Positions 2,666-26,864 of a stretch of DNA of 64,000 nt are shown piece by piece (positions within the stretch are counted from its first letter, which is position 1; the number at the start of each line of letters is the position of its first letter). The notes below the pieces were generated by a model, which was given only the letters and a program-made list of their open reading frames with translations, had not been told where the DNA came from and searched no databases. A program made the position numbers and the translations under genes. The stretch comes from an uncultured Saprospiraceae bacterium (GTDB lineage: Bacteria > Bacteroidota > Bacteroidia > Chitinophagales > Saprospiraceae). The stretch spans positions 1 through 64,000 of the forward strand of contig CALJPQ010000026.1 of assembly GCA_937980645.1 (NCBI GenBank). Direction: 5' to 3'.

Positions 2666-5600
2666 CTACCGGAGCAGGGTAACATCGCCTCGGCGCAGGC
2701 GCCGTTCGCCGTTGCCGGCGCAGGTAATTTCTATGAGCCAGACATAGACGTCGGACGGTGCGGGCTGGCCGTCGGCAGTGCCGTCCCAGGCGGCGGAGGC
2801 ACCGAAGGCCTCGTAGATTTTTTGCCCCCAGCGGTTGTAGATGGCTAAGTAGGCGATGGTCTCCACGCCTTCGTAGGGAGCGGGTTTGAAGACATCGTTG
2901 TGGCCGTCGCCGTCGGGAGTGAAGGCGTTGGGCATGCGAATGCGCATCGGGTCGCAGGGAGGCAGCGGGAAGAGCCGGTAGGTGAGCGTATCGGCGCAAC
3001 CGTCGGCGTTGAAGATGAATACCGAGTAGGTGGCCGTGTCGGTGGGCGTTACGGAGGGTGAAGTACAGTTGGTACAGGAGAGGCCCACCGTTGGCGTCCA
3101 CAGGTAGTTGGCGTATCCGGCGGGTGCCTGGAGCGCCAGCGTCTGGCCAGGGGTGAAGAAGAGGGTATCTTCGCTTTGCGGCAGCACGGGTGCGGTCAGG
3201 TCTTCAATCCAAATGCAGTGGGTGCTGTCGCAGCCGGCGCTGGAGGGAAACTTGCGGCAGTACTGGCCACTCTGGAGCACGGGTTCGCCGAACACCCACA
3301 CGGTGTCGGAGGGGCAGCGGGCGACGCGCTCTTCGGTGTCGGGTACGCGCTCGAGGCGTAGGAGCAGGACACTGTCGCAGCCACCGGCGTTTTTGAGCCG
3401 ACGGGTGTAGAGGCCAGGCTCGTCGGTCAGCATGTCGAAGACCAGTACTGGTGTGCCCTTGCAGGTGCGTAGGTGGCCCAGGTCGGTAGTGTCGGGCTGC
3501 AGCACCACGATGCGGGCCGAGTCGCGCAGCTCGCAGCCTTCGGCGTTGGTTGCTATAATATAATAGGTGTGGGTAGCCGTTGGCGTCAGCGTCTGGGTGA
3601 GCGCATTCGGCTGAGTGATGCCTGGTCCTTGCCATTGCGCGCTGGTGGCGCCGATGAGTTGCAAGGTAACAGCATCGCCTGAGCAGACGGGGCTGGGATA
3701 CGGCGCCAGCTGCGGCCCGGGCACCGCGCGCACCTCGAAGAGGTGAGTGATAGTGCAGCCGGCGGCCCCGGTCTCCTGAAGCACAAAGGGGAAGATGCCG
3801 ACGGCAGGCGGCGTAAAGGCAAACGCTGGGCATGGGCAGGGTGGCAGCGCCAGGCCTCCCGTCCAGGCATAGGCGCGGTCGGGCAAGCTGTCAGGCAGGC
3901 CGACGGTCGTGATCTGCCCCACACAAGTCGTCTGCTGTTGCCACAGGACGGAGTCTATAGCGATGCGCAGGGCAGTGTCAGCACAGGTGCAGTTCTCGGC
4001 GCCCGGCAGCACGAGGAGCAGGCGGCAGAAGTCAGGCGCCGCCGGGCCGCTGAACGGCCGGGCAATGCTCTGGCCGGCGGCTAAGGTAAGGTTGGTGTTG
4101 TCCTTAGTCAGCACTGAGTCGGTACCAGGGGTGTAACGGCCGTCGCCGTTGACATCGTGGACGAGCCACAGCGCGGCGAGCGAGACCGGCGACGGCCCGT
4201 CGTTGCGCACTTCGGCGCGATACTGGCCGTTGCCGCCCACTACTCTGCCCGATGCGTTCAGGAGGACCAGGTCGGCGGCGTAGGGAGGCAGCAGTAGGAT
4301 GGTATTGCCTGTAACGGTGTAGATCACGCAGTTGCTGTTGAGCGTCGGGCAGAAGGCCACGGCGCGCTGCCGCGTCTCGACGCGCAGAGGAGCACCGTGG
4401 CAATCGGCCTGCTCGCCCGTGCGCAGGCGCAGTCCAAAGCGTATTACGTCACCGCTGGCGAGCCCCGCTGGCAAGGACAGGCGCAACTCCTGCCCCACCT
4501 GTTGGGGCGGCCCGACGGGCGCGTTCGACCCGGGTACATACGAGCCCAGCACATACGCATAACCCGGTGGTAGAGCAAGGTACAGGCTGTCGCCGGCCTG
4601 AGGCGAGCCACCCAGCAACACACTGACCTCCAGCAGGCGCTCAGCACGACACGACAGCGGCCCGCCCCCAGCATCCGTCAGCGCAATTTGGGTCGTGTAG
4701 GAAGGAACCGTGCCCTCCACCGCAATCGGGTCGCTGGCCTTGCGCAAGACATTGCTCGGCCGACCGCAGTACCACTCAGCGCGCCCGCCCAGAACAATCT
4801 GGCCGTTCGACACTACTCCGCACGTCGTTACCACCCGGAAGCGAATGCGCATGGCGTTCTGCGGCGCCATATTCACGCCGGGCAAGCCATCGGGAAGCGC
4901 TGCACCCAACAGAGCGGCCACGTCCCATTCCAGCACACCACCGCCCGTCGGCGTCGGGTCAGGGATATTCATCCACGCACTGCCCGCCGGATAGGCCAGC
5001 TGACACGAACCCGGCAACAGCTGAAAGCCCGCCGGCAACTGGATGGCCGCCACCGGCTTGTAGGCATGGCCCAAATCGGCGTTGGACAACTCCAACTCGA
5101 AATAACCCGACGTGTCGCACAGCGGGACGTTGTTGGACAGCCGCACCAGCTCCAACTCTATCTCCGGCTTTCGCGGCACTAAGCGAATGGTCAGAGTATC
5201 CTCGTCGCACACAAACGGCGGCTCAGGCGAGCAGGACCAGCCGAAGAGAATCTGTACCTGTTGGGGGTCGCAGGTCAGGTTGCGCGCCCGGAAGCGTAGC
5301 GTCCAGGTAACCAGCGGAGGCACCGTGCCCAGCTGAAACAGGCCATTGACGGCCGAAAACGTCTGGCCGGTCTCGACCACCGTCAACGTCGCGTCGGCCA
5401 GTCCACCATCTGGCGGCGTTACGAAGCGCACGTGATAGGCGGGCATGGGAAACGGCGTCAGGTTACGCAGCGTCAGGTCGAACATTGCCTCACCTTTTGT
5501 AACCCCGTAGGAAGGCTCAGCCGTACGAAGGGAGTCGCGCGGGACACTGCTAAAGAAACCAATGCCGCTCGTGAGCGAGTCCTGTCGAGTCTGCCCCTTG

Positions 5601-8600
5601 TTGATGCAGCCGCTGTAAGTGATGGTGAAGTACTGTGGCGCTCCGGCTGGCTCCTCCATCCGGCAATTGGGTGAGAACACATAGCGCGTGCTGAAGCGAT
5701 AGCCTTCGTCTAAAAGCTGAGCATAGAGGCTGGAGAAGTCCACGCGCACTTCGCCATCTATGAACTGGAAAGGCAAAGGCTGCGCCGGTAACAAAGGTTG
5801 ATTTTCCTGCAGGCGCAGCCATTCGAGCTGTACGGATTGGGGGCTAAGCCCCGTAGGCAAGCGAAGCCGATAATCAGAAAGCACCGAAAGCGGGCGTACC
5901 TCGTAAGGGAAAAAGTTGGGACGCGCCAGCTGGGCCGTATAGCCAAAGGGCACGGATTGCAGCGAAGCCTCGCATGGGCGGATGTTCCACCTACCCGCTC
6001 TTATGGTATCGCTCACGCCTGAGTATTGGAGCATAACGGTATCGCCTTCACGATATAAAAAACCACGCAAGTCTCCTGTTAATGTAGCGTGCAAACCTGC
6101 TTCTATATTGACTAAAGGAGGTCGGTTTAGTTGGGTGCGAATAAAGTTGAGGTCGTACTTCCAACGTGTAAACAGCGCCAGAGAATCGCCCGGCTTAAAA
6201 CGAAAGCCAGGCGGTAGGCATCCCTCCCCAGCCAGTGCTTGAAAATTAAGATTAAAAGCGCGACTCTGAGAAACCAATTCGTCTTTTGTAACGAAAGGTT
6301 TGATATTTATTGCCTGAACAACCGCGTAGATGCGCTCTATTTCTTTGGAGAAGTTGATATTTGGGCAATAGTAATACACGCCGGCAGTGCTGTCCCATAC
6401 CTGAACTGCCGCATCTAACAAGCGCACAGAGTCCTTATTGGCAAAATTGTATTGGGCGGAGTAGAGTGGATGGCCCCCTATAACAAACGTATCAAAAGCG
6501 TTGTCGTAAGCAAAATCGGTTCGGACCACCTCAAGAAAAACCTGGTGGAGAAGAGCACCCAAGGGCTCGCCCGCTACCATCTTCGTCGAAGAAACCATAA
6601 GCATGGTATCCCCCGCCATGAAACGGTTTAGCCGAATCTTGCTCTTGTCCAGCATGCCCGGCAGGTCGGCCATGCGATTATCGTCCGGGTCAGGAAAGCC
6701 CAGGCTTAAACGCTCGGCCCTCATGTGATGCCGTAAAAGGTACCCGTTTCCACCTATTGCTCCTCCGCCCCCCCCCGTACACCCCGGCCACACGCAGGTA
6801 GTCCGTAGCGCAAATGAGTCGCACGCTGATATCGCACAAGATAAATTCGCTTGTAAATGACGACTCAGCGAAATACGTGCAGCACCTAAATATCCGCAGT
6901 TACTGCAACTATCTCCCACTGCGGGGACCTGAGTCACCAGCGTACTGCCAGAGGGAGGCACTGTGCTCGCCCCTTCCCAAAGAGCAACGAAATTGGCCTG
7001 GGGAGAACACGTGTTTAACACCTTAAAATCCAGACGCAACAGTGAGTCCTGTATAGGCAATGCAAAGGCCATGTGTACCCGCTGATAAAAAGACGACGTG
7101 TCAATAGAAAACACCACAGGAGCCTTTCCACCGAGTAAAGGGAGGCCATTTGAGGGTGCCCAGAAAAGTCCCCAAGGCAATTCCAGCTGGATCCACACAT
7201 AACCGGAGTCGTTTCGCAGGCGATTGCTGTTGAGCACCACCTGCAGTTTGTATTCCTGCCCATCTTCCAGACACCGACCGATGCTGTAGTGAATGCGCCC
7301 TAAGAGCAAATCCTGGGGGTCTATTTTCACGGTAGTTATTTCTACCTCCGCATTTTGGCAGGGCCTGGGATAAAACTGCAGTAATGTCATTTCGGGAGAT
7401 AAAAGAGCACATACATCCCCACAGTAGTAGAAGTCATAATAAACCCACGCCGTATCACCCACAGGGATAAGGGGGAGTACAAAGTTAACTTTAGTTGCCA
7501 CCTCTCTGCCACATTCCGTAAGCGTAAGGGTGTCAAACTGAATAAGAGACAGCGGTGTGGTCTGCCCACCCTTTACAATACGAAAAGAGTAGGGGTCGAA
7601 GCCGGCCCATGACACGGAGGAGGAAAGCCCTGCCTCCATGAATACATTCTGTGCTTCCAGCTGCCCGACATTAAAAATGCCAAAAGCCCCGATTGAAGCT
7701 TCCTGAGCGCACCCGTCCCAGGCAAGTGGATAGCGAGCCGTCACGTCCACATCTACAGTTTTAGACGTCGGCTGGATAAACACATCCGCTAGCGCGCTAT
7801 CTCCCTGGCAAGGCGCCAGCGCAGGCGCGCAACTCCACGCCACAGACAGGTATGAGCGTGATTTCATGGAGGTGCAGGTGTCAATTTTCAGCCGCTCCAC
7901 GATGCGCACCGTTTCCCCGAAGTCGAGCAGGGTATCGCCATTGCCAAACTGACTGAAGAACGCGCCACTGAAGTAAGCCCGGTAATTGCTGCCGGTTTGT
8001 TGCTCTGCTGCTGCGCCCGGGGCGTGCACAGTGAAGCCGCCCTGCGAGGTGTCGCGCAAGAACAAATGCCGCACCGGCGCCAGTCGCGTATTGCGCACGT
8101 GGATGGTGCGCACCAGCGTGTCGCCGTATTCGCCCGAGAGCACGGCGTTGTCCACCTGCACGATGACCAACAGGCTGGTCTGTATCTGGAAATTGGAAGT
8201 TGTCAGCCATTCGCTGATGTTGCCGCTTTTCACCTCCAGCACAGCGCTGAACAGCTGCCCAGCATTGATGGCATCCGCCAGCGCGCAATCGGCATACACC
8301 TGAAAGCGCAACGCTGCCAGGGCGCCGATGCCCAGGTCGGACAGGCGGAAAACGGGCTGTTCCAGGTTGTTCAAATTCAACTCTGAGGCTCCCACGATGC
8401 TGCCCGGCACGTACTGCACGCCCGCTGGCAGCGTAACGGTCAGCGAGGCGCCAGCCACGGGAGCCCCCGTCTGGTTGCGCACCGACACAAAAAAAGTGTC
8501 GGAAGCGCACACAGCCAGCTGGTCAGGGGTCTGGAAAAACAGGGCGAACGATTGCCCGAAGGCAGGCGCCACAGCGCTAGCAATGCATAAGGTCAAAAGG

Positions 8601-8617
8601 AGGTGAAAAATACGCAT
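2666..8617 (-). CDS. Giant secreted protein with T9SS type B (gliding-motility-type) C-terminal domain
   Basis: 1983 residues. It has a signal peptide (MRIFHLLLTLCIASAVAPAFGQ), then a series of DUF11/Ig-like modules with phrases like LTVTLPAGVQYVPGS, and near residues 1700-1890 short modules resembling PKD/immunoglobulin repeats (SVTPTDTATYSVFIFN). The last 90 residues are a clear type B sorting domain: MPNAFTPDGDGHNDVFKP, YNRWGQKIYE, WDGTADGQPAPSDVYVW. That domain directs export by the type IX system and attachment or release at the cell surface. Promoter with good spacing at 8652-8683. Two oddities: a run of nine G/C at 6768-6776 in a Gly-rich segment, and a stretch around 5.8-7.7 kb that is visibly AT-richer than the rest of the gene. 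Adhesin or structural surface role is inferred only. Confidence 0.9.
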   Translation of the reverse strand: MRIFHLLLTLCIASAVAPAFGQSFALFFQTPDQLAVCASDTFFVSVRNQTGAPVAGASLTVTLPAGVQYVPGSIVGASELNLNNLEQPVFRLSDLGIGALAALRFQVYADCALADAINAGQLFSAVLEVKSGNISEWLTTSNFQIQTSLLVIVQVDNAVLSGEYGDTLVRTIHVRNTRLAPVRHLFLRDTSQGGFTVHAPGAAAEQQTGSNYRAYFSGAFFSQFGNGDTLLDFGETVRIVERLKIDTCTSMKSRSYLSVAWSCAPALAPCQGDSALADVFIQPTSKTVDVDVTARYPLAWDGCAQEASIGAFGIFNVGQLEAQNVFMEAGLSSSVSWAGFDPYSFRIVKGGQTTPLSLIQFDTLTLTECGREVATKVNFVLPLIPVGDTAWVYYDFYYCGDVCALLSPEMTLLQFYPRPCQNAEVEITTVKIDPQDLLLGRIHYSIGRCLEDGQEYKLQVVLNSNRLRNDSGYVWIQLELPWGLFWAPSNGLPLLGGKAPVVFSIDTSSFYQRVHMAFALPIQDSLLRLDFKVLNTCSPQANFVALWEGASTVPPSGSTLVTQVPAVGDSCSNCGYLGAARISLSRHLQANLSCAISACDSFALRTTCVWPGCTGGGGGAIGGNGYLLRHHMRAERLSLGFPDPDDNRMADLPGMLDKSKIRLNRFMAGDTMLMVSSTKMVAGEPLGALLHQVFLEVVRTDFAYDNAFDTFVIGGHPLYSAQYNFANKDSVRLLDAAVQVWDSTAGVYYYCPNINFSKEIERIYAVVQAINIKPFVTKDELVSQSRAFNLNFQALAGEGCLPPGFRFKPGDSLALFTRWKYDLNFIRTQLNRPPLVNIEAGLHATLTGDLRGFLYREGDTVMLQYSGVSDTIRAGRWNIRPCEASLQSVPFGYTAQLARPNFFPYEVRPLSVLSDYRLRLPTGLSPQSVQLEWLRLQENQPLLPAQPLPFQFIDGEVRVDFSSLYAQLLDEGYRFSTRYVFSPNCRMEEPAGAPQYFTITYSGCINKGQTRQDSLTSGIGFFSSVPRDSLRTAEPSYGVTKGEAMFDLTLRNLTPFPMPAYHVRFVTPPDGGLADATLTVVETGQTFSAVNGLFQLGTVPPLVTWTLRFRARNLTCDPQQVQILFGWSCSPEPPFVCDEDTLTIRLVPRKPEIELELVRLSNNVPLCDTSGYFELELSNADLGHAYKPVAAIQLPAGFQLLPGSCQLAYPAGSAWMNIPDPTPTGGGVLEWDVAALLGAALPDGLPGVNMAPQNAMRIRFRVVTTCGVVSNGQIVLGGRAEWYCGRPSNVLRKASDPIAVEGTVPSYTTQIALTDAGGGPLSCRAERLLEVSVLLGGSPQAGDSLYLALPPGYAYVLGSYVPGSNAPVGPPQQVGQELRLSLPAGLASGDVIRFGLRLRTGEQADCHGAPLRVETRQRAVAFCPTLNSNCVIYTVTGNTILLLPPYAADLVLLNASGRVVGGNGQYRAEVRNDGPSPVSLAALWLVHDVNGDGRYTPGTDSVLTKDNTNLTLAAGQSIARPFSGPAAPDFCRLLLVLPGAENCTCADTALRIAIDSVLWQQQTTCVGQITTVGLPDSLPDRAYAWTGGLALPPCPCPAFAFTPPAVGIFPFVLQETGAAGCTITHLFEVRAVPGPQLAPYPSPVCSGDAVTLQLIGATSAQWQGPGITQPNALTQTLTPTATHTYYIIATNAEGCELRDSARIVVLQPDTTDLGHLRTCKGTPVLVFDMLTDEPGLYTRRLKNAGGCDSVLLLRLERVPDTEERVARCPSDTVWVFGEPVLQSGQYCRKFPSSAGCDSTHCIWIEDLTAPVLPQSEDTLFFTPGQTLALQAPAGYANYLWTPTVGLSCTNCTSPSVTPTDTATYSVFIFNADGCADTLTYRLFPLPPCDPMRIRMPNAFTPDGDGHNDVFKPAPYEGVETIAYLAIYNRWGQKIYEAFGASAAWDGTADGQPAPSDVYVWLIEITCAGNGERRLRRGDVTLLR

Positions 8618-8651
8618 GGGCGGCAGGTTGAGTTTATGGCTTAATTAAATG

Positions 8652-8683
8652 CAAACGTACAGCATCCTCAGGCATTTACGCAA
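8652..8683 (-). promoter_or_regulatory. Promoter for the type B sorting-domain giant
   Basis: Minus strand: TTG (8683-8681), 21-nt spacer, TACGTTTG (8659-8652), about 35 nt before ATG 8617. It matches the Bacteroidota consensus in both boxes and spacing. Confidence 0.7.
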
Positions 8684-8853
8684 TGGATCGCATGCCAGAA
8701 AAAAGCAGAAAGGCTATTCTTTTTACAGCCACTGACACGAGAGGCATTTAGCCTCCGTTGCACCTGAAAAACCACAGAAGGCAGCCCCCCTGCCGTGGCG
8801 GAGGATGCCGGAAGCAAACTTTTAGCACATGTTCCAGCGTACGCTAGCCCTCC

Positions 8854-11800
8854 TTATTTGCGCAACCGCACCAGCCGGTGCACAACGCGCCCGTGGGCCG
8901 TTTCTGCAGAGAAGAACAACACGCCTGCGACGGCTCCCAACCCCTCATCGTTGAGGCGTATGGCCTGAATGCCGGCGCTCAGGTGGCCCGCCCTTTCCCA
9001 GATTAAGCGCCCTGCGGCGTCGTGGATGCGCAATACCACGTGGCCTTCCTGAGGCAGATGAACAAACACCTGAGTCTCTTCTCCAAACGGATTGGGCTGG
9101 CTGCTCAACACCAGTGCGGCATCGGTCTCAGCCGGCAGTTGCCCCGAAAAGCGCAGCTGTGGGCGCAGCGTCTGCTGGCGGTCCGGGCTGTAGGCTTCGG
9201 CAGGTGTAACGGCATCCGACAGCGTCAGGCATTCGCTCAGGCGGCCCGAACGCCGGGCGCGCACGCGCAGGCGCAGCTCGGGCACACCGCCCGCATCCCA
9301 GCTGAACGTCAGGCGCTGACCGCCGTTGAGCACAGCGTAATGCTCAGGCGTGAAGCCCTCGGAGGGCAACACCTCCAGCACCTCCAGCCCCGGGCATTCC
9401 AGCGTACCCTGCATGCCCGCCACAGCCTCCTGTGCGCGCAGCGTGAGGGTCATCGCTTCGCCGGCGGTCAAGCGGCAGTCTTCCACATCCAAGTACAGCG
9501 GCTGACGTTCTTCAGAAGTGTTATCATGGAAGCTGAACTTGACGCTAGCATTGGCGTCACCCACTTTAATGATGATAAAGCTCAGCGGTATGGAGTCGAG
9601 CGAGCGAATGTGTTCCGGAAAGGGCGGTGAGAAAGGATTGACCGGGTCGGAAAAGGCATGAGCCGCAGGCACAAAGCGCCACGGGGGCGAGGCCGGCAGT
9701 TCGGTATAGATGCCGAGAATGAGTTTGCGCAGCTCCAGGATGTCGAAGGTGGTTACCGTGCGCGAGCTGTTGGCGTCGGCAGCGATGATACGGTAAGGCG
9801 TGGGCAACAGCTCCAGATTCAGGATATGCCGATTGATGGTGAGCAGGTCTAAGGTGGTAACTCCTTTGACGTGTTCCTCATCGTAGAAGGGCTGCACCGC
9901 AAACGTAGTGGCAAAGGGTACGGTGAAGGAGAATTCGCCTTTGGGGTCAGTAACGTCGTAGAGCGTGATAGGGCCTTGCAGCGGCGAGGTACCCTTTAGC
10001 TCGACGATGATGCCGGGCGCTCTTTCGTTCAATTCGGTGCGAATGTCGCCGGAGAAGGTTTCCTCAAATGGCGCGCACTGGTAAGGCGAGGCACCTATCT
10101 GGATTATCTGCGTACAGGTTGTTTTGTTGCCACAGCGGTCTTCCACCGTCCATTCGATGCGGTGTATGCCACGCGGTAGCTTGGGTGTTACGAATGCCGG
10201 ATTACCGCTTTCGCGCCAGACCAATTGCACCTGAAGCGTGTCGCCAACCGGGGTGCGGGCCAGGTCGAACTGGTACTTGTTCTGCGTCGGCACATTGCGC
10301 TGGTCAAATTCGATTTGCGTGCCGCCCGAGTAGTTAGGGTTGTTGATGTTATTGTAGCGAATGGAACCCGGCGGCGTCTGGGTGGGCGAGGGAAACACCG
10401 ACTCCACCTGCCGATCGCCATCCAGGTCTAAGAACAAGCGGTATCTGACCGTAACATCCGCGCGTTCGCAGGCATCCGTCGCCGCGATGGAGACGACGAC
10501 ATCGGCTTCGCACAAATCCAGGTTCTGGAATACCCAGAAATCTTTGTTGTCAAAGGTTACGTTGGTAAACTTCAGCGTGTCAGAAGCGCAGATGAGGTCA
10601 GGCTCCTGATTGTCCTGCACCCAAATACGCTGTTCATAGGTATAGCCATTGCCATAGGGGTCCCAGAACGTGCTGAAATTGGTGGGGGCATGCCCGGGTG
10701 TGATCGCCACCTCTGTGGCCGCGAGGTTGGTTGGAGCATTGGGGGACGATACCAACGGACCGGGTCGGTTGTTTGAATGCAAAGGAATGGGATGGGGCTG
10801 CGGGTTGGGCACGGCCGTCAGCGGCAGGTCGGGGTTGTAGCTGCACCGGTTGTAAACCCTCCATCGGCGCAGAATGAGGTAACACGCATCCGGAGCGTTC
10901 ACCCGCTCGTCGGAAAATTCAAAGGTTACATCTTCGCATCCGAAGCCAAAAATTTCGGGAAAGTTATCGCTGTTGGAACCGCAGTCCGTCAGGAGGAGGT
11001 CATCCGGGAAACGAACGTAGTAGTCGAAGCCGGCCAGACCCGTGATTTGTTGGGTGCACTGGGCGCTATTGCCCTGTTTGTCAAAGACCTGGAAGGTGCG
11101 TACCAGCGTGCCGCTGCCACAGTTCCATTGAAAGTTGGCCGTGTCCAATACCACGGCAACGGAGTCCACGCCGCAAGAGAGGGTTGCCTGTCCGTAGCTC
11201 TCCAGGGCAGGGTCGAAGTCGGCACAGGTGATGGTAACGTCTGCTGGGGCCTGGCAACGGGGCGGGTTATTGTTGAGTACCTCGATGCGTGTCTGGCATT
11301 CCGAGTAGTGTCCTCCGCCGAGGCTGTCGGGTACTGGGCCGGCAGGTACAGCAGCGTCGTAAACCCTCAGAATGGCCATAACGTCGGTTCCGACGTCAGC
11401 ACAGCAGACCCGCACAAAGTCGTTCCACACGGGCAGGGTGTCGCATTCGGAAGGCGCTGAGCGGCGCACCTTCAGGCGCACCGGCCGGCAGTCGTCCGTA
11501 GAGCCGTCGTTGAACAGGTCGGCAGGCGCGGCGCCATTGCCGTTGTCGTCTAAAAAGATAGTGATCAGCGAGTCGCACAATGCTGTGGGTTTCTGCTGGT
11601 CGCGCACGTCTAAGTTGAACTCACACACGCTGACGTTGTCGCACTCGTCGTAAAGGGTCAGGGTCATGGGCAGCAGGCCCGTATTCAGCCCAGCCAATTC
11701 GCCAAAAACAGCCAGAGTGTCGAGGCGGAGCGAGTCGCTGCCGGCAAAGTCGGTCAGTTCGGCCTCGAGCGAGTCGGCGACGCCCCAATGCAGTACGGCG

Positions 11801-13107
11801 CGCACCACGTGCGAGCAAGCATCGGTGATGACAAAATCGGGCAAATCTACCGTACCCGAGCATCCGGCTTCCAGCAGCGTTACCCCCAAGACGGGTGGGC
11901 AGTGCACTGTTGGCCCCTGGTCATCGGCCAATTCCACCACTTGCTCGCCCACGAGCGGCTGTGCGTCCGGGTCATTAGCCTGACAGGCATTGCGCACCGT
12001 CCACAGGCGCGTCAGCAAACGCGCACCGCCGCACAAGGGCTGCTCCGTGTCAGAATACTCGGCCTCCAAATCGCAAACGACATTTGGCCCCAGCGCATAA
12101 CGCCGTGTGCCCACCTGGAAGTAAGGCCAGCCCAGTGCATCGGGCTGAGCCGACGCCGAGCAGGTGATGGTAGTGTCCGGAGGCAACTGCACATCTTGCA
12201 AAAGTCGCACGCGCTCAATGACTTGCACGCAAGTGCTGAAGTTGCCGTGCGCGTCGCCCACCGTCCAGAAGCGGCGAATGACCTCGAGCACGTCCACCGA
12301 GTCGCACGAATAGCTGTTGCGCAGGTCGGTGAAGAGCGTGCTCACATTGCCCGGGCAGTTCTCCGCAATATCCGGGTAAGCACCAGCGATGCCCAGCGAG
12401 TCGCGCAGAAAGGTCGGCGTGAGGTGCTCGAGCGGCACCACGCACGGAATTTGCAACGTGGGGCACGTCAGTGCCGGCGCCAACGTGTCGCGCACATCCT
12501 CCACCTCGACGACGCATTCGCTGCCCAGCAGACTATCGCGCACGACCAGCTGAAATTTCTTGCCCAGGTCGTCGAAATCGAAGGCGGCAGGAACGCGCTT
12601 TGCGGGCGGGGCGGCAATCCACGTACCCAATTGGTTGGGGCAGGTGTAGTGGTCATTGTTCAAAAGGCTCTCCGCGCGCGGCACAGTGGTGCATTGCGGC
12701 CCCAGATAGATGACGATTTTAGGTTGGCAGATCAAGGGAAGCGTGTCTGGTTTCACCTCCACGGTGAAGGCACAACTGACAGCGTTGCCCGCGGAGTCGG
12801 CAGCGGTGAAAATGTTTTGCGTCAGCCCATAGGGGAAGGTAGCCCCCGAAGGCAGGCCGCTCAGCTGGGTTACCGCCAGCGTGTCAGGGCCATCGAAGGC
12901 CAGCACCTCATACGTGTACTCTGCACCACATAGACCTTTGGCGGAAAAAAGCGTCGTGTCCGGAGGGCACACTATCGTCGGTCCAGTCGTATCCGGCGAG
13001 GCCCAAAAGACGGCTGCACGTTCAAACGATGAAAAAGCGGTATTGGCAATAGAAAAAGAGGTAGCGCTAACGAAGACCCCAATACAGGCAGGTATCCATC
13101 GGTTCAT
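8854..13107 (-). CDS. Giant secreted HYR protein with dockerin-like, cohesin-like and T9SS type A domains
   Basis: 1417 residues. The signal peptide is followed by many HYR-like Cys-containing repeats (for example TTGPTIVCPPDTTLF near residue 40, and repeated CxVQVIERV and CTQQITG phrases) to about residue 1000. A carboxypeptidase-regulatory-like segment follows (about 1010-1065), then a dockerin-like stretch at about 1075-1185 (VTTLDLLTINRHIL, ADANSSRTVTTFDILELRKLI, VGDANA), with the paired Asp/Asn-rich turns expected of duplicated EF-hand-like loops. A cohesin-like beta module lies at about 1205-1310. The last 85 residues form a T9SS type A sorting domain (QPNPFGEETQV..., HDAAGRLIWE..., GVLFFSAET). 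Extracellular location is well supported; ligand unknown. Downstream neighbour on the same strand is the type B giant, 236 bp away with its own promoter. Confidence 0.88.
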   Translation of the reverse strand: MNRWIPACIGVFVSATSFSIANTAFSSFERAAVFWASPDTTGPTIVCPPDTTLFSAKGLCGAEYTYEVLAFDGPDTLAVTQLSGLPSGATFPYGLTQNIFTAADSAGNAVSCAFTVEVKPDTLPLICQPKIVIYLGPQCTTVPRAESLLNNDHYTCPNQLGTWIAAPPAKRVPAAFDFDDLGKKFQLVVRDSLLGSECVVEVEDVRDTLAPALTCPTLQIPCVVPLEHLTPTFLRDSLGIAGAYPDIAENCPGNVSTLFTDLRNSYSCDSVDVLEVIRRFWTVGDAHGNFSTCVQVIERVRLLQDVQLPPDTTITCSASAQPDALGWPYFQVGTRRYALGPNVVCDLEAEYSDTEQPLCGGARLLTRLWTVRNACQANDPDAQPLVGEQVVELADDQGPTVHCPPVLGVTLLEAGCSGTVDLPDFVITDACSHVVRAVLHWGVADSLEAELTDFAGSDSLRLDTLAVFGELAGLNTGLLPMTLTLYDECDNVSVCEFNLDVRDQQKPTALCDSLITIFLDDNGNGAAPADLFNDGSTDDCRPVRLKVRRSAPSECDTLPVWNDFVRVCCADVGTDVMAILRVYDAAVPAGPVPDSLGGGHYSECQTRIEVLNNNPPRCQAPADVTITCADFDPALESYGQATLSCGVDSVAVVLDTANFQWNCGSGTLVRTFQVFDKQGNSAQCTQQITGLAGFDYYVRFPDDLLLTDCGSNSDNFPEIFGFGCEDVTFEFSDERVNAPDACYLILRRWRVYNRCSYNPDLPLTAVPNPQPHPIPLHSNNRPGPLVSSPNAPTNLAATEVAITPGHAPTNFSTFWDPYGNGYTYEQRIWVQDNQEPDLICASDTLKFTNVTFDNKDFWVFQNLDLCEADVVVSIAATDACERADVTVRYRLFLDLDGDRQVESVFPSPTQTPPGSIRYNNINNPNYSGGTQIEFDQRNVPTQNKYQFDLARTPVGDTLQVQLVWRESGNPAFVTPKLPRGIHRIEWTVEDRCGNKTTCTQIIQIGASPYQCAPFEETFSGDIRTELNERAPGIIVELKGTSPLQGPITLYDVTDPKGEFSFTVPFATTFAVQPFYDEEHVKGVTTLDLLTINRHILNLELLPTPYRIIAADANSSRTVTTFDILELRKLILGIYTELPASPPWRFVPAAHAFSDPVNPFSPPFPEHIRSLDSIPLSFIIIKVGDANASVKFSFHDNTSEERQPLYLDVEDCRLTAGEAMTLTLRAQEAVAGMQGTLECPGLEVLEVLPSEGFTPEHYAVLNGGQRLTFSWDAGGVPELRLRVRARRSGRLSECLTLSDAVTPAEAYSPDRQQTLRPQLRFSGQLPAETDAALVLSSQPNPFGEETQVFVHLPQEGHVVLRIHDAAGRLIWERAGHLSAGIQAIRLNDEGLGAVAGVLFFSAETAHGRVVHRLVRLRK

Positions 13108-14578: not shown

Positions 14579-16222
14579 TCATTTTATCAGCAACAGCCCC
14601 AGCAATCCGGCCAGCATCAGTATTTTTATCCCTAAACTCACCTGCGAAAAATGCCTCCGCTCAGCAGCGCGGTAGAACAAGCCTACCAGAAACACTGAGG
14701 GCAACCCCAGCAAGACGACGCCGAGGACCAGGGCAAACGCGGGGCTTCCGGCCTCTGCTCGCCAACCCAACAGCCCGCCGATGAGCGCAGACAGTAGCAG
14801 ACCCGTCCCGGTGGCAAGCCTTTGCGCCGCCGGCACACCTAGCCATACGGGCAGCGTCCGACAATGGCCAGCAGCATCGCCCGCCACATCTTCGAGGTCT
14901 TTCACCTGTTCGCGCCAGAAGTTGCTCAAAAACGCGAATAGCCCGTACAAACCCGGCCACAACAGCGCCATCCAACCGGCATCTGATGTTGTGAGCGCTT
15001 CTACATAAGGCCTTTCAGCCATCAGGGGCAGTAATGGCACTACGCCGCACAGCAGCGACACCGCCACATTGCCCACCAAAGGCGTGCATTTGAGCCATCG
15101 GGCATAGAGGAACAATAGCAGCGTTGCGCCTGCAAACACTGCCGCCACAAGCCCATTGCCCAGCCACAAGCCCAGCAACAGGCCCAGCAACAGCGCAAGA
15201 GGCCATAACATCCTATGAAACCGTCGCACCCGCTCCGGCGAAAGCCAGCGCCCGACCACTACCCTACCAGGACGGTTGAGGGCGTCTATAGCACGGTCGC
15301 AATAGTCGTTCAGGGCATAACCGGCAGCGGCCGTCAGCACCACAGCCAGTGATAGAACCGCAAATCGGAAGACATTCAGGACAGGCTCCTTACCGCTTTG
15401 CTCTATGACAGGCCGCAACACTGCCCAATAAGGCAACGCCAGTGCCAGAGTGAGGATGAGCAAATTGGGCAGGCGCACAAGGCGCATCCACGCTCTTAGC
15501 GCCTGAGCGAAAGAAAGCAACGGCTGCCGGGGCTGTGGCTGATGTTCGGCCTCGTGCGCTAAGACAGGCACGTGCTTCGTCCAGAAATCCGGTTCTTGGG
15601 CGGCGCGGGCCAACATGCCCGGGATGTCGGCGCGCAGCACGGCCCGTAGGATGCGCGCGTGTCCTTCGTTGTTCAGGTGCGCTCCGTCGCCGCTGTCGCA
15701 TTCGGGCAGCAGGCCATCGTCGGCGTCGGCCAGAAGGTCCCAGGCGTCTATGAGGAGGGGGTCGTAACGCGCCTGCATGGCCTGGCGCAATTCGCGCTGG
15801 ATGCGCCGCTGCTCGGGCGAAAAGTTGCGCGGCTGCGGGGTGCAGAGCCACACGGGCACGCCCTGCTGCAGGGCATGCGTGAGCATCTGGTCGAAGTTGG
15901 CCAGCTGCTCTTGCGGGCCGTAGTAGGCGGCAGCATCGTTGGAGGGCGCCTGCACGATGACGGCATCCGGGCCAAAGGACAGCGCTTTTGTGAGGTTGCG
16001 CTCCGCATCGGGCAACGGGCGCGCCGGCGGTGGACGGTGCTCCGTAGGCATCAGGTGAAACGTCTGCAGGCCGCCCTGAGCCAGATTGACGATTTCGCTG
16101 GCCGCATGCAGCGCTTTCAAATAGGCGCCATAGCGATGCGCCCACGCCTGTTCGGGCGGGTCTGCTCCCTGGCCGGCAGCCGTAGAAGAGCCGATAATGA
16201 CCAGACGAAGGGGTCTGTGCAT
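14579..16222 (-). CDS. SGNH/GDSL hydrolase fused to UbiA-type prenyltransferase
   Basis: 547 residues from ATG 16222 (MHRPLRLVIIGSS); an ATG six codons upstream is the alternative. Residues 5-200 form an SGNH hydrolase: block I GSSTAAGQG with nucleophile Ser about 13, an N-containing PSNDAAAYYGPQ block, and block V DGAHLNNEGH with the Asp/His pair near 180. From about residue 240 a polytopic membrane domain follows with both UbiA signatures: NDYCDRAIDALNRPGR (about 304) and DLEDVAGDAAGHCRTLP (about 440), the two DxxxD-type motifs that bind Mg and prenyl diphosphate. UbiA enzymes transfer a prenyl chain to an aromatic or glycerol-phosphate acceptor at the membrane. The fusion to a hydrolase is unusual. 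No stop or frameshift separates the halves. Acceptor and hydrolase substrate are unknown. It ends the minus-strand run that starts with the DUF1573 gene. Confidence 0.85.
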   Translation of the reverse strand: MHRPLRLVIIGSSTAAGQGADPPEQAWAHRYGAYLKALHAASEIVNLAQGGLQTFHLMPTEHRPPPARPLPDAERNLTKALSFGPDAVIVQAPSNDAAAYYGPQEQLANFDQMLTHALQQGVPVWLCTPQPRNFSPEQRRIQRELRQAMQARYDPLLIDAWDLLADADDGLLPECDSGDGAHLNNEGHARILRAVLRADIPGMLARAAQEPDFWTKHVPVLAHEAEHQPQPRQPLLSFAQALRAWMRLVRLPNLLILTLALALPYWAVLRPVIEQSGKEPVLNVFRFAVLSLAVVLTAAAGYALNDYCDRAIDALNRPGRVVVGRWLSPERVRRFHRMLWPLALLLGLLLGLWLGNGLVAAVFAGATLLLFLYARWLKCTPLVGNVAVSLLCGVVPLLPLMAERPYVEALTTSDAGWMALLWPGLYGLFAFLSNFWREQVKDLEDVAGDAAGHCRTLPVWLGVPAAQRLATGTGLLLSALIGGLLGWRAEAGSPAFALVLGVVLLGLPSVFLVGLFYRAAERRHFSQVSLGIKILMLAGLLGLLLIK

Positions 16223-16252
16223 CACCTGAAAACCAGACAAAAGATAGTGGTA

Positions 16253-19200
16253 TTATTCTCGAAACAGAGAAATGGGCGTTCGTTCGACCATTTGCCGGTA
16301 CTCGTTCCAGGGGGTACCCAACACCTCCTCCACGCGCTTGCTGGCCGCATCCACGGCTTTTTCGGCCTCGCGAATGGCGATTTGCGCCGCCGCATTGGGC
16401 GCTCCGGGCGAGGCGTTGAGGTAGCTAATGGCGCGATTCAGCGCGCTGTTGACACCCTCGGGGTTGCGCTGAATGCCTTTGCCCTCCTTTTGGGCAAAAA
16501 ACAGCTCTTTCAACACCGAAAGGCTGTCGCGAAGGGCTTTTCCGCGCTCCAACACCTCTTTTTTCAGGCTGTCGGGCGTATTGGCTAAAGCACTCTCGAC
16601 GGTTTGGATGTTTTTTTCGGCCTTTTTCAGGCGTTCGTACAGCTGGGTAGCGCGCTCGACAGTGGGGTAAAACTGCCGCAGGGCTTCGGCTTTGGCGCGG
16701 CGTTGCTCCGTGGGAAAGTGGAGGCGCGGGTCATCCTGCACGGTTACGGTGGTGGAGTCGGCGTGGTCGCGCACGTGGACGACGATGCGGTATTTTCCGG
16801 GTAGTACGGCAGGCCCACCGCCCGGCTCGAGGCGGTCGGCGTCGGGTTCGCGGTTGGAGGGCATGTCCACGCCGCGCGTGTCTAAGTTCCAGGTGATATA
16901 ATTGAAGCCCGTATCCACGTCTGCTTTCCAGCGGCGCAGGGTATCGCCCTGCATAGAGAGGACGAACACCGTGGCCTTTTCTTTTTTGGCATTGCCGCTC
17001 TGGCCGCGGCCGCGCGAGCGGGGCGTTTCGCGGGTGGGTTCGGCTTTTTCCTCTTTTTTGTTGTCCTTTTTTTCTTCAGTTTTGGCCAGTAGTTCCGGGC
17101 TAATCCAGATGGGAATGCGCGCGGCGGTGCTTTTGGTAGGGGCTTCGTAGAAGGCGTCGGCGGCAAAGCGCGGGCCGTCGTAGGAGCGCCAGGCGGCCAG
17201 ATAGGCCGTTTGCGGTTCAAGGGCGCGCAGTGGTTTGTCGGTGCGCTGGCGGCGGGCCATGTCGCGCAGCGGGGCGAGGTTATCCAGGATCCAGATGCCG
17301 CGTCCGAAGGTGCCGAGGATGAGGTCGCCGTCGCGCGGGTGGATTTTCATGTCCTGTACAGGCATGGCGGGCAAACCGTTGGGTTTGTCGGGGGTGGGGC
17401 GTGGCCAGGTCGTCCAGGTTTTGCCATAGTCGAGGCTAAAGTAGAGGCCCTGGTCGGTGCCGAGGAAGAGCAATTCGGGTACTTCGGGGTCTTGCACGAC
17501 GGACAGGCAGAAGGTAGGGATGTCTTTTTCATCCACCAATCGCTTCCACCGGCGGCCATAGTCGGTGGTGTGGTATAGGTAGGGCCTCCAGTCGTTGTTG
17601 CGGTAATGGTTGACGACGACGAAGGCCTCACCGGCGTTGCGCGTGGAGGCTTCGATGTGCGGTATCCAGGCGTTTTTGGGGCAATCGGGCAGGCGGTCGG
17701 TCAGGTTTTGCCAGGTGCGGCCGCCGTCGCGCGTGAGTTGCAGGTTACCATCGTCGGTACCCACCCAGATGACGCCTTTTTCGACCGGGCTGGGGGCAAT
17801 GGCCAGCAGGGTACAGTGGTTTTCAGCGCTTGTTACGTCGGGGGTGAGGCCGCCCGACTGGCGTTGCTTTTGTTTGGTGGTGTCGTTGGTGGTCAGGTCG
17901 GGCGACAGGATTTCCCACGTCTGGCCATAGTCGAGCGAATAGTGGAGGAATTGACTGCCGAAGTAGATGCCGCCATCGCGGAAGGGGTCCTGAGCTATGG
18001 GCGCGTTCCAGTTGAAGCGCAGCGGAATGCCGTCGGGGTGCAGCGGTTTGATATAGCGCGTTTGGCCCGTTTTGCGGTCCACGTAGTGCAGTTCGCCGCC
18101 CTGCGACATAGCGAAGAGGTAGCGGTTGTCGTCGCGCCGGGGCAGCACATCGAAGCCATCGCCGAAGAGCACTTCCTGCCAGTCGGAGTTGCGGATGCCG
18201 CCGCTGCGCCACACGGCGGAGGGGCCTACCCAGGAGCCGTTGTCTTGCAGGCCGCCATAGACATTGTAGGGCACGTCGTTATCCACATTGATGTGGTAGA
18301 ACTGGCCTACCGGGATGTTCTCGGCGTAGCGCCAGGTGCGGCCGCCGTCGTAGGTAATGTTGAGGCCGCCGTCGTTGCCGTTGATGATGTAGTCCGGGTT
18401 GTCGGGGTGTATCCAAAAGGCGTGGTGGTCTAAGTGGATTTTCCAGCCTATCCAGGTTTCGAAGCTCTTGCCGCCGTCTTCGCTGCGGTTGAGATAGGTG
18501 TGCAGGCTGTAGATGCGGTTTTCGTTTTTAGGGTCTACGTAGATTTCGGCATAGTAGAACGGCCTTCCGCCGATGTTTTCGGTGGTGGTTTTGCGCCAGG
18601 TACGACCACCATCGTCGCTGCGGTAGAGGGCGTTTTCTTCAGCCTCGACGAGGGCATAGACGACGTTGGGCTTGCTGCGGGCGATGGCGATGCCGATGCG
18701 GCCCAGTTCGCCTTTGGGCAGGCCATCGCGGTCGGTGCGTTTTTCCCAGGTTTCGCCGCCGTCGTAGGAGACATATAGTCCAGAGCCGGGGCCGCCCGAT
18801 TTGAAGTGCCAGGGCCAGCGCTGGTATTCCCACATGGCAGCGAAGAGTTTGTTGGGGTTGCTGGGGTCGGCCACCAGCTCGGCGCAGCCCGTCAGGCCGT
18901 TGACAAACAGCACGCGCCGCCAGGTGCGGCCGCCGTCGGTGCTTTTATAGACGCCACGCTCTTCGGTAGGGCCATAAGGCGAGCCAAGCACTCCGACCCA
19001 CACCACGTCGGGATTGTCGCGGTGCAACAGCACGCGGTGTATGGCGCGTGTTTTTTCTAAGCCCATGTGCTGCCAGGTACGCCCGCCATCTATAGATTTA
19101 AAAATGCCGACGCCGAAGTTCTGCGAATTGCGCGGGTTGCCTTCGCCCGTGCCTACCCAGATGAGGTCGGGGTTTTGCGGATGAATGGCGATAGCGCCGA

Positions 19201-19480
19201 TGCTTTGCGTGGGCGCAGCGTCGAAGATAGGTTCCCAGCTTGTACCGCCGCTGCGGCTGCGCCAGACGCCACCCGAGGCCGCTCCGGCATAGATAACGTT
19301 CGGGTTGGCCGGGTCGCAGGCTAGGGCCGTAATGCGGCCCGACATGGCGCCCGGGCCAAGGTTGCGCCACGTCAGTGCCCGCAAGTGTTCGGGTGTTTGA
19401 GCGCATACGAGGTTGGTGAAAATGCCAACAACAGTAACGGCCAAACTTGTTTGGCCAAAACGCATAGCAAATCTGAGCAT
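16253..19480 (-). CDS. Secreted BNR/Asp-box (VPS10/sortilin-like) repeat protein
   Basis: About 1075 residues from ATG 19480 (MLRFAMRFGQ...); ATG 19465 is equally possible, while the ATG at 19549 reaches into the preceding gene's stop region. An N-terminal hydrophobic segment ends in NLVCAQ, a signal peptide. Residues about 40-790 carry at least ten Asp-box turns (KSIDGGRTW, KSTDGGRTW, VSYDGGETW, RSDDGGRTW, LTRDGGRTW, FSLDYGKTW), the signature of BNR/sialidase-like or VPS10 beta-propellers. A charged Lys/Glu-rich segment (about 840-870) and a helical C-terminus follow. No T9SS sorting domain is seen, so a periplasmic location is possible. The family is often annotated as glycosyl hydrolase, but catalytic residues are not evident; binding is a safer call. 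The start region contains copy C of the dispersed palindrome in frame. Confidence 0.85.
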   Translation of the reverse strand: MLRFAMRFGQTSLAVTVVGIFTNLVCAQTPEHLRALTWRNLGPGAMSGRITALACDPANPNVIYAGAASGGVWRSRSGGTSWEPIFDAAPTQSIGAIAIHPQNPDLIWVGTGEGNPRNSQNFGVGIFKSIDGGRTWQHMGLEKTRAIHRVLLHRDNPDVVWVGVLGSPYGPTEERGVYKSTDGGRTWRRVLFVNGLTGCAELVADPSNPNKLFAAMWEYQRWPWHFKSGGPGSGLYVSYDGGETWEKRTDRDGLPKGELGRIGIAIARSKPNVVYALVEAEENALYRSDDGGRTWRKTTTENIGGRPFYYAEIYVDPKNENRIYSLHTYLNRSEDGGKSFETWIGWKIHLDHHAFWIHPDNPDYIINGNDGGLNITYDGGRTWRYAENIPVGQFYHINVDNDVPYNVYGGLQDNGSWVGPSAVWRSGGIRNSDWQEVLFGDGFDVLPRRDDNRYLFAMSQGGELHYVDRKTGQTRYIKPLHPDGIPLRFNWNAPIAQDPFRDGGIYFGSQFLHYSLDYGQTWEILSPDLTTNDTTKQKQRQSGGLTPDVTSAENHCTLLAIAPSPVEKGVIWVGTDDGNLQLTRDGGRTWQNLTDRLPDCPKNAWIPHIEASTRNAGEAFVVVNHYRNNDWRPYLYHTTDYGRRWKRLVDEKDIPTFCLSVVQDPEVPELLFLGTDQGLYFSLDYGKTWTTWPRPTPDKPNGLPAMPVQDMKIHPRDGDLILGTFGRGIWILDNLAPLRDMARRQRTDKPLRALEPQTAYLAAWRSYDGPRFAADAFYEAPTKSTAARIPIWISPELLAKTEEKKDNKKEEKAEPTRETPRSRGRGQSGNAKKEKATVFVLSMQGDTLRRWKADVDTGFNYITWNLDTRGVDMPSNREPDADRLEPGGGPAVLPGKYRIVVHVRDHADSTTVTVQDDPRLHFPTEQRRAKAEALRQFYPTVERATQLYERLKKAEKNIQTVESALANTPDSLKKEVLERGKALRDSLSVLKELFFAQKEGKGIQRNPEGVNSALNRAISYLNASPGAPNAAAQIAIREAEKAVDAASKRVEEVLGTPWNEYRQMVERTPISLFRE
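19439..19456 (-). repeat. Dispersed palindromic repeat, copy C (inside a signal peptide)
   Basis: Minus-strand GGCCAAACAAGTTTGGCC followed by GTTACTG. This copy lies inside the coding sequence of the BNR protein and encodes GQTSLAVT within the hydrophobic signal peptide. Confidence 0.85.
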
Positions 19481-19545
19481 AAGTTGGTCTGTGTTTATCT
19501 GTTCATGTCCGGCAAAAATGCCGCATTTTTCCTTTTCGCGCCCTC

Positions 19546-20049
19546 TCAAGGCACAATCTCAAACTGATATTCCACCACTTCGATACGCGGCAGGCCGTTG
19601 GCATGGGTGTTTTTGAAGACGATGGTGATGCGGATGGTTTCGGCCTTTTCCTTTTCGGTGCTGTCAAAAACGACGTCTAAGCGGCCCTTTTGGCCCGGCT
19701 CGATGGGGCGGCGCGGGTAGTCCACCTTCGTACATTCGCAGGCGTCCACGAGGTCAATCTGGACATTTTCGCCAGAGGTGTTGGTAAATTCAAAAAACAT
19801 CGTGCGCTTTTCGCCGCGCTTGACGGCACCCAGGTTGATGAGTTTCTTGTCCCAGGTAACGAATGCCGATGCCAGAGCGCCCGGCGCGGGTGCTGGCAGT
19901 GATGAAGCCGGCGAGTTAGGCACCTCCGTAGCAGCAGATATTGGCGATGCCGAGGGCGTTTTAGAGGATGACGCAGCTTCTTTGGGCGCATGGCAGGCTG
20001 CGGCGGCCCATACCATTGCGGAGAAAAGCAGAACAGACAGGTACTGCAT
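19546..20049 (-). CDS. DUF1573 lipoprotein
   Basis: 167 residues from ATG 20049 (MQYLSVLLFSAMVWAAAAC); the frame is open upstream to 20223, but that part covers a promoter and a palindrome, so the later start is chosen. The signal peptide ends in a lipobox-like AAAC (Cys about 20), followed by a Ser/Pro/Ala-rich linker. The C-terminal 100 residues match the DUF1573 Ig-like fold: VTWDKKLINLGAVKRGEKRTMFFEFTNTS, CECTKVDYPRRPIEPGQKG, VVFDSTEK, ITIVFKNT. It is predicted to be anchored in a membrane by its lipid. Family function is unknown. The gene has its own promoter, and the next gene (BNR protein) follows with a 65-bp gap, so the two may be cotranscribed. Confidence 0.8.
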   Translation of the reverse strand: MQYLSVLLFSAMVWAAAACHAPKEAASSSKTPSASPISAATEVPNSPASSLPAPAPGALASAFVTWDKKLINLGAVKRGEKRTMFFEFTNTSGENVQIDLVDACECTKVDYPRRPIEPGQKGRLDVVFDSTEKEKAETIRITIVFKNTHANGLPRIEVVEYQFEIVP

Positions 20050-25166: not shown

Positions 25167-25189
25167 CGCCTGCCATGCACACGAACACG

Positions 25190-25762
25190 ATGTTTCCCAC
25201 CCGACCGCTCATTCTGGTTTCCAAAAGCCCGCGCCGCCGGCAGCTGTTGCAGGAAGCTGGCTTCACCTTCAGCATCCAGGGCTTAGACGTGGATGAAAGT
25301 TTCCCTGAAGACATGCCCGCAGAAGAAGTTGCCGAGCACCTGGCCCGCCGAAAAGCACACGCTGGGCGGCATCTGATAACCGACCAGGAGATCTTGATTT
25401 CCGCCGACTCGGTAGTCATCTGCCAGGGCCGCATTTACAACAAACCCGCCGACTATGACGAGGCCGTGCACATGCTGCGCCAGTTGTCGGGCAACCAGCA
25501 CACCGTCATCACGGGCGTTTGCCTGTTGGCCGCTGACCAGGAGCGCTCGTTTTCCGACCGCTCGAAGGTATTCTTCGAGCCGCTGACCAACGAGGAGATG
25601 GATTTCTACATCCGTCAGTATCAGCCCTTCGACAAGGCCGGCGCCTACGGCGTGCAGGAGTGGATTGGCCTGTGCAAAATTCGCCGCATCGAAGGCTCAT
25701 ACGCCAACGTGATGGGCCTGCCGGTACATCGCGTGTATGCCGAACTCAAGGCCTTTGGATAA
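25190..25762 (+). CDS. maf: Maf-family nucleoside triphosphate pyrophosphatase
   Basis: 190 residues from ATG 25190 (MFPTRPLILVSKSPRRRQLLQEAGF); ATG 25175 adds five residues and is possible. Signature SxSPRRxxLL at the N-terminus, the DESFPEDMPAEEVAEHLARRKA loop, the catalytic-base region ISADSVV, and GAYGVQEWIGLCKIRRIEGSYANVMGLPVHRVYAEL at the C-terminus. The family hydrolyses dTTP/UTP or modified nucleotides to the monophosphate plus pyrophosphate and is linked to house-cleaning and septum formation. It is followed by a glycosyltransferase gene after one base, so the two are cotranscribed. Confidence 0.9.
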   Translation: MFPTRPLILVSKSPRRRQLLQEAGFTFSIQGLDVDESFPEDMPAEEVAEHLARRKAHAGRHLITDQEILISADSVVICQGRIYNKPADYDEAVHMLRQLSGNQHTVITGVCLLAADQERSFSDRSKVFFEPLTNEEMDFYIRQYQPFDKAGAYGVQEWIGLCKIRRIEGSYANVMGLPVHRVYAELKAFG

Positions 25763-25763
25763 A

Positions 25764-26864
25764 ATGGCTCGCATCGCGCTGACGGTAACGAACGACCTGA
25801 CCTGCGACCAGCGGATGCAACGCATCGCCCGCACCCTGTCGAACGCAGGGCACCGCGTCCTGCTTATTGGGCGGCAATTGCCCGAGTCGGTGCCTTTGCA
25901 AAGGATGCCTTTTGGGCAAAGGCGCTTGCGCTGCCGGTTTCGGCGCGGGCCGCTTTTTTATGCCGAATACAACCTCCGGTTGTGCTGGTTTTTGTTGCGC
26001 CTGCCGGTGGACGCCATCGGCGCCGTGGATTTGGATACGCTGCTGGCGGCCTGCTTTGTGGCGCGTGTGCGCCGCAAGCCGCTGGTCTTCGATGCGCACG
26101 AGTATTTCACGGAGACACCTGAGGTAACCCACCGCCCATGGGTGAAGCGCGTTTGGGAGACGGTAGCTCGCCTCTGTCTGCCTTTTTGCCGAAAGGCCTA
26201 CACCGTCGGACCAGCATTGGCCAGCATTTTCACCCAAAAATACGGGCTGCCCTTTGGCGTCGTGCGCAATGTGCCTGAAGCCATGCCGACACCACCTGAG
26301 CGAGTGAACGCCGGCCCTCCCTATGTGTTGCTTTATCAGGGTGCACTCAATGAGGCGCGCGGCATCGAGCAAATGCTCCAGGCCCTGACGGCATTGCCCG
26401 ATTACGAACTGTGGTTAGCCGGCGAGGGCGACCTGTCCGCTCCGCTTCGGCAACTGGCCCAACAACTCGGCCTGGGCCAGCGAGTGCGCTTCCTGGGCCG
26501 TCTGACGCCGGATGCTTTGCGCGCGCTGACACCACAAGCCTGGCTGGGGGTAAATGTTCTGGAGAAAAAGGGCCTGAGCTACTACTACTCGCTGGCCAAC
26601 AAGTTCTTCGACTACGTGCAGGCCGGTGTACCCGTGCTGACAATGAACTTCCCAGAATATCAGGCGCTCAATGCGCAGTATCCGGTGGCGTATTTACTCG
26701 ATGAACTTCAACCCGAGGCCGTAATAACCGCCATCCGGGAGTTGCAGCGGTGCCCCGAGCGCTACGAGGCCATGCGTCAGGCAACACTCCAGGCGCGGCA
26801 GGTATGGATATGGGAACGCGAAGCACCAGCCCTTTTGGCCCTTTGGAACGAGGTGTTCGCCTGA
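25764..26864 (+). CDS. Glycosyltransferase, GT4-like (GT-B fold)
   Basis: 366 residues from ATG 25764, one base after the maf stop. The N-terminal Rossmann half (MARIALTVTNDLTCDQRMQRIARTLSNAGHRVLLIGR) would bind the acceptor; the C-terminal half has YQGALNEARGIEQMLQALTAL, LWLAGEGDL, RVRFLGRLTPDALRAL and the nucleotide-sugar-binding stretch LANKFFDYVQAGVPVLTMNFPEYQ. This is the GT-B arrangement of GT4-type enzymes. No signal peptide or membrane span, so cytoplasmic or peripheral. Sugar donor and acceptor cannot be read. A surface glycan role fits the nearby tyrosine autokinase and flippase genes, but they are not in one operon. Confidence 0.85.
   Translation: MARIALTVTNDLTCDQRMQRIARTLSNAGHRVLLIGRQLPESVPLQRMPFGQRRLRCRFRRGPLFYAEYNLRLCWFLLRLPVDAIGAVDLDTLLAACFVARVRRKPLVFDAHEYFTETPEVTHRPWVKRVWETVARLCLPFCRKAYTVGPALASIFTQKYGLPFGVVRNVPEAMPTPPERVNAGPPYVLLYQGALNEARGIEQMLQALTALPDYELWLAGEGDLSAPLRQLAQQLGLGQRVRFLGRLTPDALRALTPQAWLGVNVLEKKGLSYYYSLANKFFDYVQAGVPVLTMNFPEYQALNAQYPVAYLLDELQPEAVITAIRELQRCPERYEAMRQATLQARQVWIWEREAPALLALWNEVFA

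Follow-up and report, generated by a model that had tools for sequence, protein, structure and literature searches.

Among the described enzymes of archaeal-type lipid synthesis, the DGGGP synthase (DGGGPS) of M. jannaschii (PDB 6M31/7BPU) is one whose N/D/D, Y/K and D/D/D motifs have been studied by mutagenesis, the DGGGPS opening lying on the cytosolic face (PMC9385802), and functional GGGPS and DGGGPS have also been found in FCB bacteria, namely Ca. Cloacimonetes (PMC7852524); DGGGP synthase activity has been demonstrated for no Bacteroidota member in the literature covered. Fusions of a UbiA prenyltransferase with a soluble enzyme are known from sulfate reducers, where IspH, predicted to be cytosolic, stands N-terminal to UbiA, an arrangement read as functional linkage (PMC4746011). 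Acetylated isoprenoid ether (glycerol) lipids are known too: O-acetyl groups occur on isoprenoid glycerol lipids made by way of YvoF acetylation in the ether-lipid synthesis of bacteria and haloarchaea (PMC9179154).

The window analyzed here (64,000 nucleotides, positions 1 to 64,000 of contig CALJPQ010000026.1 of an uncultured Saprospiraceae bacterium) encodes, at 14579..16222 on the minus strand, a 547-aa protein in which an SGNH/GDSL hydrolase is followed by a UbiA prenyltransferase. The archaeal and Cloacimonetes enzymes are like it in their nine-helix UbiA fold, three motifs, cytosolic opening and the presence of a GGGP synthase in the genome, whereas the fusion adds a 240-residue N-terminal stretch (SGNH domain plus linker), and its UbiA half is ~22% identical to the M. 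jannaschii enzyme, its function being predicted from sequence. In the IspH-UbiA fusions the partner supplies the prenyl donor, whereas here it is a putative ester hydrolase; YvoF, in turn, is an unrelated acetyltransferase that adds the acetyl group, and no esterase is part of that description (PMC9179154). The original prediction knew of no characterised example of such a chain, and no SGNH/GDSL-UbiA fusion was found described in the literature searched, the coverage of which was partial.

One frame, two domains

The frame runs from an ATG at 16222 to a stop at 14579 (547 codons; an in-frame TTG at 16240 is a possible alternative start) through a region where the plus strand is stop-rich, and both Pfam domains score above their cut-offs: Lipase_GDSL_2 at residues 10-190 (65.8 bits vs 32.9, 9e-18) and UbiA at residues 282-507 (83.5 bits vs 34.2, 2e-23). 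The single uninterrupted SGNH-UbiA frame originally predicted is, thus, borne out, only its strand having been left unstated. The SGNH domain (residues 1-200; 15623..16222, minus strand), which has no signal peptide, is joined to the predicted DGGGP-synthase-like UbiA domain of nine helices (residues 241-547; 14582..15502, minus strand) by a variable linker (residues 201-240; 15503..15622, minus strand), recognizable by a drop in identity between the fused orthologues (21-54% vs 56-80% in the SGNH half) and by low pLDDT (<50 at residues 228-235) in a structure model built on five sequences (pTM 0.62).

A frame of this kind could also be an assembly chimera or a pair of neighbouring genes misread as one, and as the other four fused genomes are all MAGs, the junction is without confirmation from an isolate. 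The same fused architecture was, nevertheless, found in five separately assembled Saprospiraceae MAGs, the window's included, the four further full-length homologues (G019, contig JANWVR010000062; G002, CALHAM010000093; G011, JANWXM010000010; G020, JAEUUV010000241) sharing 73, 65, 58 and 47% identity with the window protein; the in-frame junction, free of stops between the domains, recurs on contigs 8 to 127 kb long; and a comparison of the window copy with that of G019 gave dN/dS values of 0.22 (SGNH half) and 0.24 (UbiA half), which indicates that both are maintained under purifying selection. We consider the chance of an artefact negligible: the fusion is a genuine protein, an artefact being excluded for practical purposes. 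Besides an artefact at the junction, orthologues devoid of one of the catalytic sets had been named as grounds against the prediction, and none of the five fused orthologues is of that sort, all thirteen catalytic positions checked across both domains being identical in each of them. What is encoded here is a lineage-restricted two-domain enzyme assembled from two known families, with no counterpart described in the literature searched.

The prenyltransferase half and its likely acceptor

All three DGGGPS motifs are present in the UbiA half. The first Asp-rich motif, NDYCDRAID (residues 305-313, with N305-D306-x2-D309-x3-D313; 15284..15310, minus strand), aligns to N62/D66/D70 of the M. jannaschii enzyme, motif 2 (Y373-x4-K378; 15089..15106, minus strand) to Y125/K130, and the second Asp-rich motif, DLEDVAGD (residues 442-449, with D442-x2-D445-x3-D449; 14876..14899, minus strand), to D180/D183/D187; these residues are invariant in 5/5 fusions, and, as other UbiA subfamilies share similar motifs, they are to be seen as necessary but not sufficient for the assignment. 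The best solved fold for this half is M. jannaschii DGGGPS (6m31, Z 22.6 over 275 residues by VIA-align; 7bpu, Z 22.4), the next UbiA reaching 20.1, and DGGGPS was the only match of phmmer against PDB (2e-10). The best family models are likewise prenyltransferases of the GGGP geranylgeranyltransferase group; the NCBI equivalog cut-offs for this function were not reached (168 bits vs 288, 135 vs 278), but the unfused relatives also fall below them, which indicates that these models are narrow. The model has nine helices, and the positive-inside pattern of the five sequences places the motif loops in the cytosol. Membership of the UbiA half in the DGGGP-synthase-like group is, therefore, strongly suggested, if predicted, and favours glycerol-phosphate acceptors over aromatic acids, both of which had been listed as candidates in the original prediction.

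The rest of the genome bears on this assignment as well. The fusion is the only DGGGP-synthase-like UbiA there, the three other UbiA proteins being of the UbiA/MqnP type, a heme o synthase and a phosphoribosyltransferase-like one (the latter, at L072 1408-2280, resembles decaprenyl-phosphate phosphoribosyltransferase, scores 230.6 vs an NCBI cut-off of 234 and adjoins a purN-like gene). A bona fide GGGP synthase is encoded elsewhere in it (G000 C27; 183 bits vs the TIGR01769 cut-off of 161.6), not adjacent to the fusion gene. Across genomes, this UbiA type and GGGP synthase are weakly associated (Fisher p 0.017 in 60 genomes, but a non-significant 0.35 in the 46 most complete ones), and no GGGP synthase was detected in the fused genome G002 (L083), which is 99% complete.

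This last absence fits an alternative in which UbiA prenylates an acceptor other than GGGP, aromatic or quinone-like, with SGNH removing an ester from the acceptor or the product. The shared motifs likely serve donor recognition and catalysis and cannot be read for the acceptor (PMC9385802), and prenylation of quinolines in vitro is known for a different group of flavobacterial UbiA enzymes (PMC9235831). The window copy of the UbiA half is 39-47% identical to unfused relatives within the genus, and in the four-genome fused clade (the window's genome, G019, G002 and G011) this half has evolved ~4x faster than in unfused relatives, relative to housekeeping proteins (tree path lengths); such fast divergence in four of the five fusions means that the acceptor may have changed, even with every motif residue kept. 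The closest characterised and solved relative is, however, still DGGGPS, separate UbiA/MqnP-type and heme enzymes are present in the genome, and the identified neighbours of the fusion (Maf, glycosyltransferase and VPS10 protein) betray no aromatic pathway, which makes the alternative an unlikely one to our minds. The quinoline-prenylating Ubi-297 (PMC9235831) was considered as a member of the same group as the fusion's UbiA and rejected, as it belongs to a different UbiA group (ebo cluster).

The hydrolase half and the proposed reaction

Blocks I, II, III and V of the SGNH family are represented by S13 (within GSST), G51, N95 and D179/H182, all invariant in the five fusions, the GSS of block I aligning to the GDS of a solved SGNH lipase; the predicted Ser and Asp/His blocks, just as both Asp-rich motifs of UbiA, are thus in place in every fused copy. 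The fold was confirmed against SGNH structures (Z 16-18 over 168-187 residues by VIA-align, with low pLDDT at residues 13-21 and 50-71), with carbohydrate acetylesterases (acetylxylan-type), aryl esterases and TesA among the matches, and such matches to a model point to ester hydrolysis or acyl transfer chemistry, not to a substrate. Signal peptides were seen on the secreted SGNH paralogues of these genomes but on none of the 5/5 fused copies, nor on their closest unfused relative, all of which begin directly at the domain. By the positive-inside rule (five sequences), the distribution of charges assigns the N-terminus to the cytosol, together with the loops that carry the prenyltransferase motifs; the SGNH half is, accordingly, predicted to lie where the prenyltransferase opens to the cytosol.

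Stand-alone SGNH proteins of the genus (L045 5975-6826 in G030 and the secreted paralogues beside MlaDEF) share 44-56% identity and the same catalytic set with the fused domain, but have a C-terminal tail of their own, or none, where the fusion has UbiA, and the paralogues are exported. Genes of exported SGNH relatives adjoin those of MlaD/MlaF/MlaE at five loci (L044 4087-8367, L045 3266-10392, L047 3690-7755, L048 3371-7496 and L113 2294-8479), in several genomes together with a Crp-family regulator, an adjacency that suggests a lipid substrate for this exported group.

The reading we tentatively prefer, while rating it somewhat short of probable, is that of a bifunctional ether-lipid enzyme of the inner membrane, in which UbiA adds a prenyl chain and the cytosolic SGNH half acts on an O-acyl group carried by the prenyl-glycerol, be it acceptor or product. 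With Mg2+, the UbiA half would transfer a C20 (or similar) prenyl from prenyl diphosphate to a prenylglyceryl-phosphate acceptor (DGGGP-synthase-type), the latter being supplied by the GGGP synthase encoded separately in the genome, and the SGNH half, a putative serine esterase (or acyltransferase) placed where acceptor and product would enter and leave, might remove or move a small O-acyl group, e.g., acetyl, on either of them; this editing would then decide if the hydroxyl of the glycerol is available for the second ether bond. Both the substrate of the SGNH half and its coupling to prenyl transfer are what we infer here; an acylated prenyl-glycerol substrate is chemically plausible given the acetylated isoprenoid glycerol lipids already known, and the coupled processing of the original prediction agrees with the retention of the catalytic residues, the cytosolic topology common to the two halves and the constraint under which each evolves. 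The more specific version, in which a second-chain prenyltransferase of archaeal type has its own cytosolic esterase that takes a protecting or blocking O-acyl off prenyl-glycerol, strikes us as improbable; if true, archaeal-type lipid synthesis would include a step controlled by acylation, such as is described for no organism in the literature found.

The main competitor of the coupled bifunctional enzyme is mere membrane tethering, by which a chance rearrangement anchored an SGNH protein whose substrates, on the cytosolic side, would be lysophospholipids or acyl-thioesters, UbiA having an unrelated job. The narrow distribution and probably single origin (see below) speak for it, TesA (lysophospholipase L1/thioesterase I) is among the fold matches of the SGNH half, the secreted relatives beside MlaD/E/F suggest general phospholipid chemistry, and the variability of the linker leaves a fixed domain interface not evident; both active sites have, however, been kept intact in the fusion through 47-73% protein identity, and none of the genomes examined showed the fusion split again. 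On balance tethering is quite possible, if rather doubtful. Preferring the coupled enzyme does not mean that a single chain is required, as nearly all relatives have separate UbiA genes and G030 has a separate SGNH. For the archaeal-type lipid genes of Bacteroidota, the fusion points to ester hydrolysis or acyl transfer at the glycerol as a candidate partner reaction, and it offers a single-gene handle for testing that reaction.

Distribution, gene context and origin

Looking for the fusion and for its unfused counterparts in other genomes, as had been proposed together with the original prediction, turned up both: five of the 42 genomes of the genus-level group, i.e., the window's and the four further Saprospiraceae MAGs, carry it, nearly all others having a separate UbiA, and an SGNH of the same type (56% identity) stands alone in G030. 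Outside the genus, no full-length match was among those listed for 396 genomes of the order (a listing that stops short of the weakest matches) or for 395 genomes of the phylum (at E 1e-42, by which weak cases are missed), the two parts being separate genes in the genomes sampled there. In 84,980 species genomes, a scan with SGNH-derived patterns only, and hence blind to a fusion between SGNH and UbiA proteins of unrelated types, returned the four further fusions and one separate SGNH.

The unfused Bacteroidota UbiA proteins (annotated as GGGP geranylgeranyltransferase, PRK12872 type) are direct orthologues of the fusion's UbiA but lack the SGNH domain, and in some genomes (G030, G005) their genes stand in the order UbiA-Maf-glycosyltransferase. 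The parts are separate in G030, where aceE is followed by the signal-peptide-free SGNH with its own tail, UbiA-Maf-glycosyltransferase being elsewhere. The fusion takes the place of UbiA, before Maf, in G019, G002 and G011, but that of SGNH, after aceE, in G020, the Maf locus of which is without UbiA. In the SGNH tree, the domains of the five fusions form a group with the G030 copy (support 96/96), whereas the first UbiA-domain tree set G020 apart from the other four and rejected one clade (p 0.008); the species tree (rpoB, uvrA, gyrA and aceE) places G020 with the other four fused genomes (85/87), and the one-clade test without distant outgroups gave p 0.09-0.10. Two independent fusions, as suggested by the first UbiA tree and by the two differing contexts (VPS10-fusion-Maf and aceE-fusion), are not claimed, the last two results allowing a single origin. 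A single rearrangement bringing together aceE-SGNH and UbiA-Maf accounts for both gene contexts, and the simplest account is one such aceE-SGNH-UbiA-Maf arrangement, later broken on different sides; two separate fusion events are possible.

In relatives, UbiA or the fusion is immediately followed by genes for a Maf pyrophosphatase and a family-4 glycosyltransferase; in the window's genome, these have been relocated (25187..26864, plus strand). Directly upstream of the fusion lies a gene for a Sortilin/VPS10 BNR-repeat protein of 1098 aa (16253..19549, minus strand), as is also the case in G019, G002 and G011, a functional link not being evident. A KdsC-type HAD phosphatase gene adjoins UbiA in unfused relatives (L035 7107-8842, L038 7870-10054, L049 6274-7965 and L050 7915-9516), the product of which could dephosphorylate the UbiA product. 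Two very large genes (1983 and 1417 aa) occupy 2666-13107 of the window on the minus strand, their products being, as judged by eye, secreted and repeat-rich, with apparent C-terminal sorting domains.
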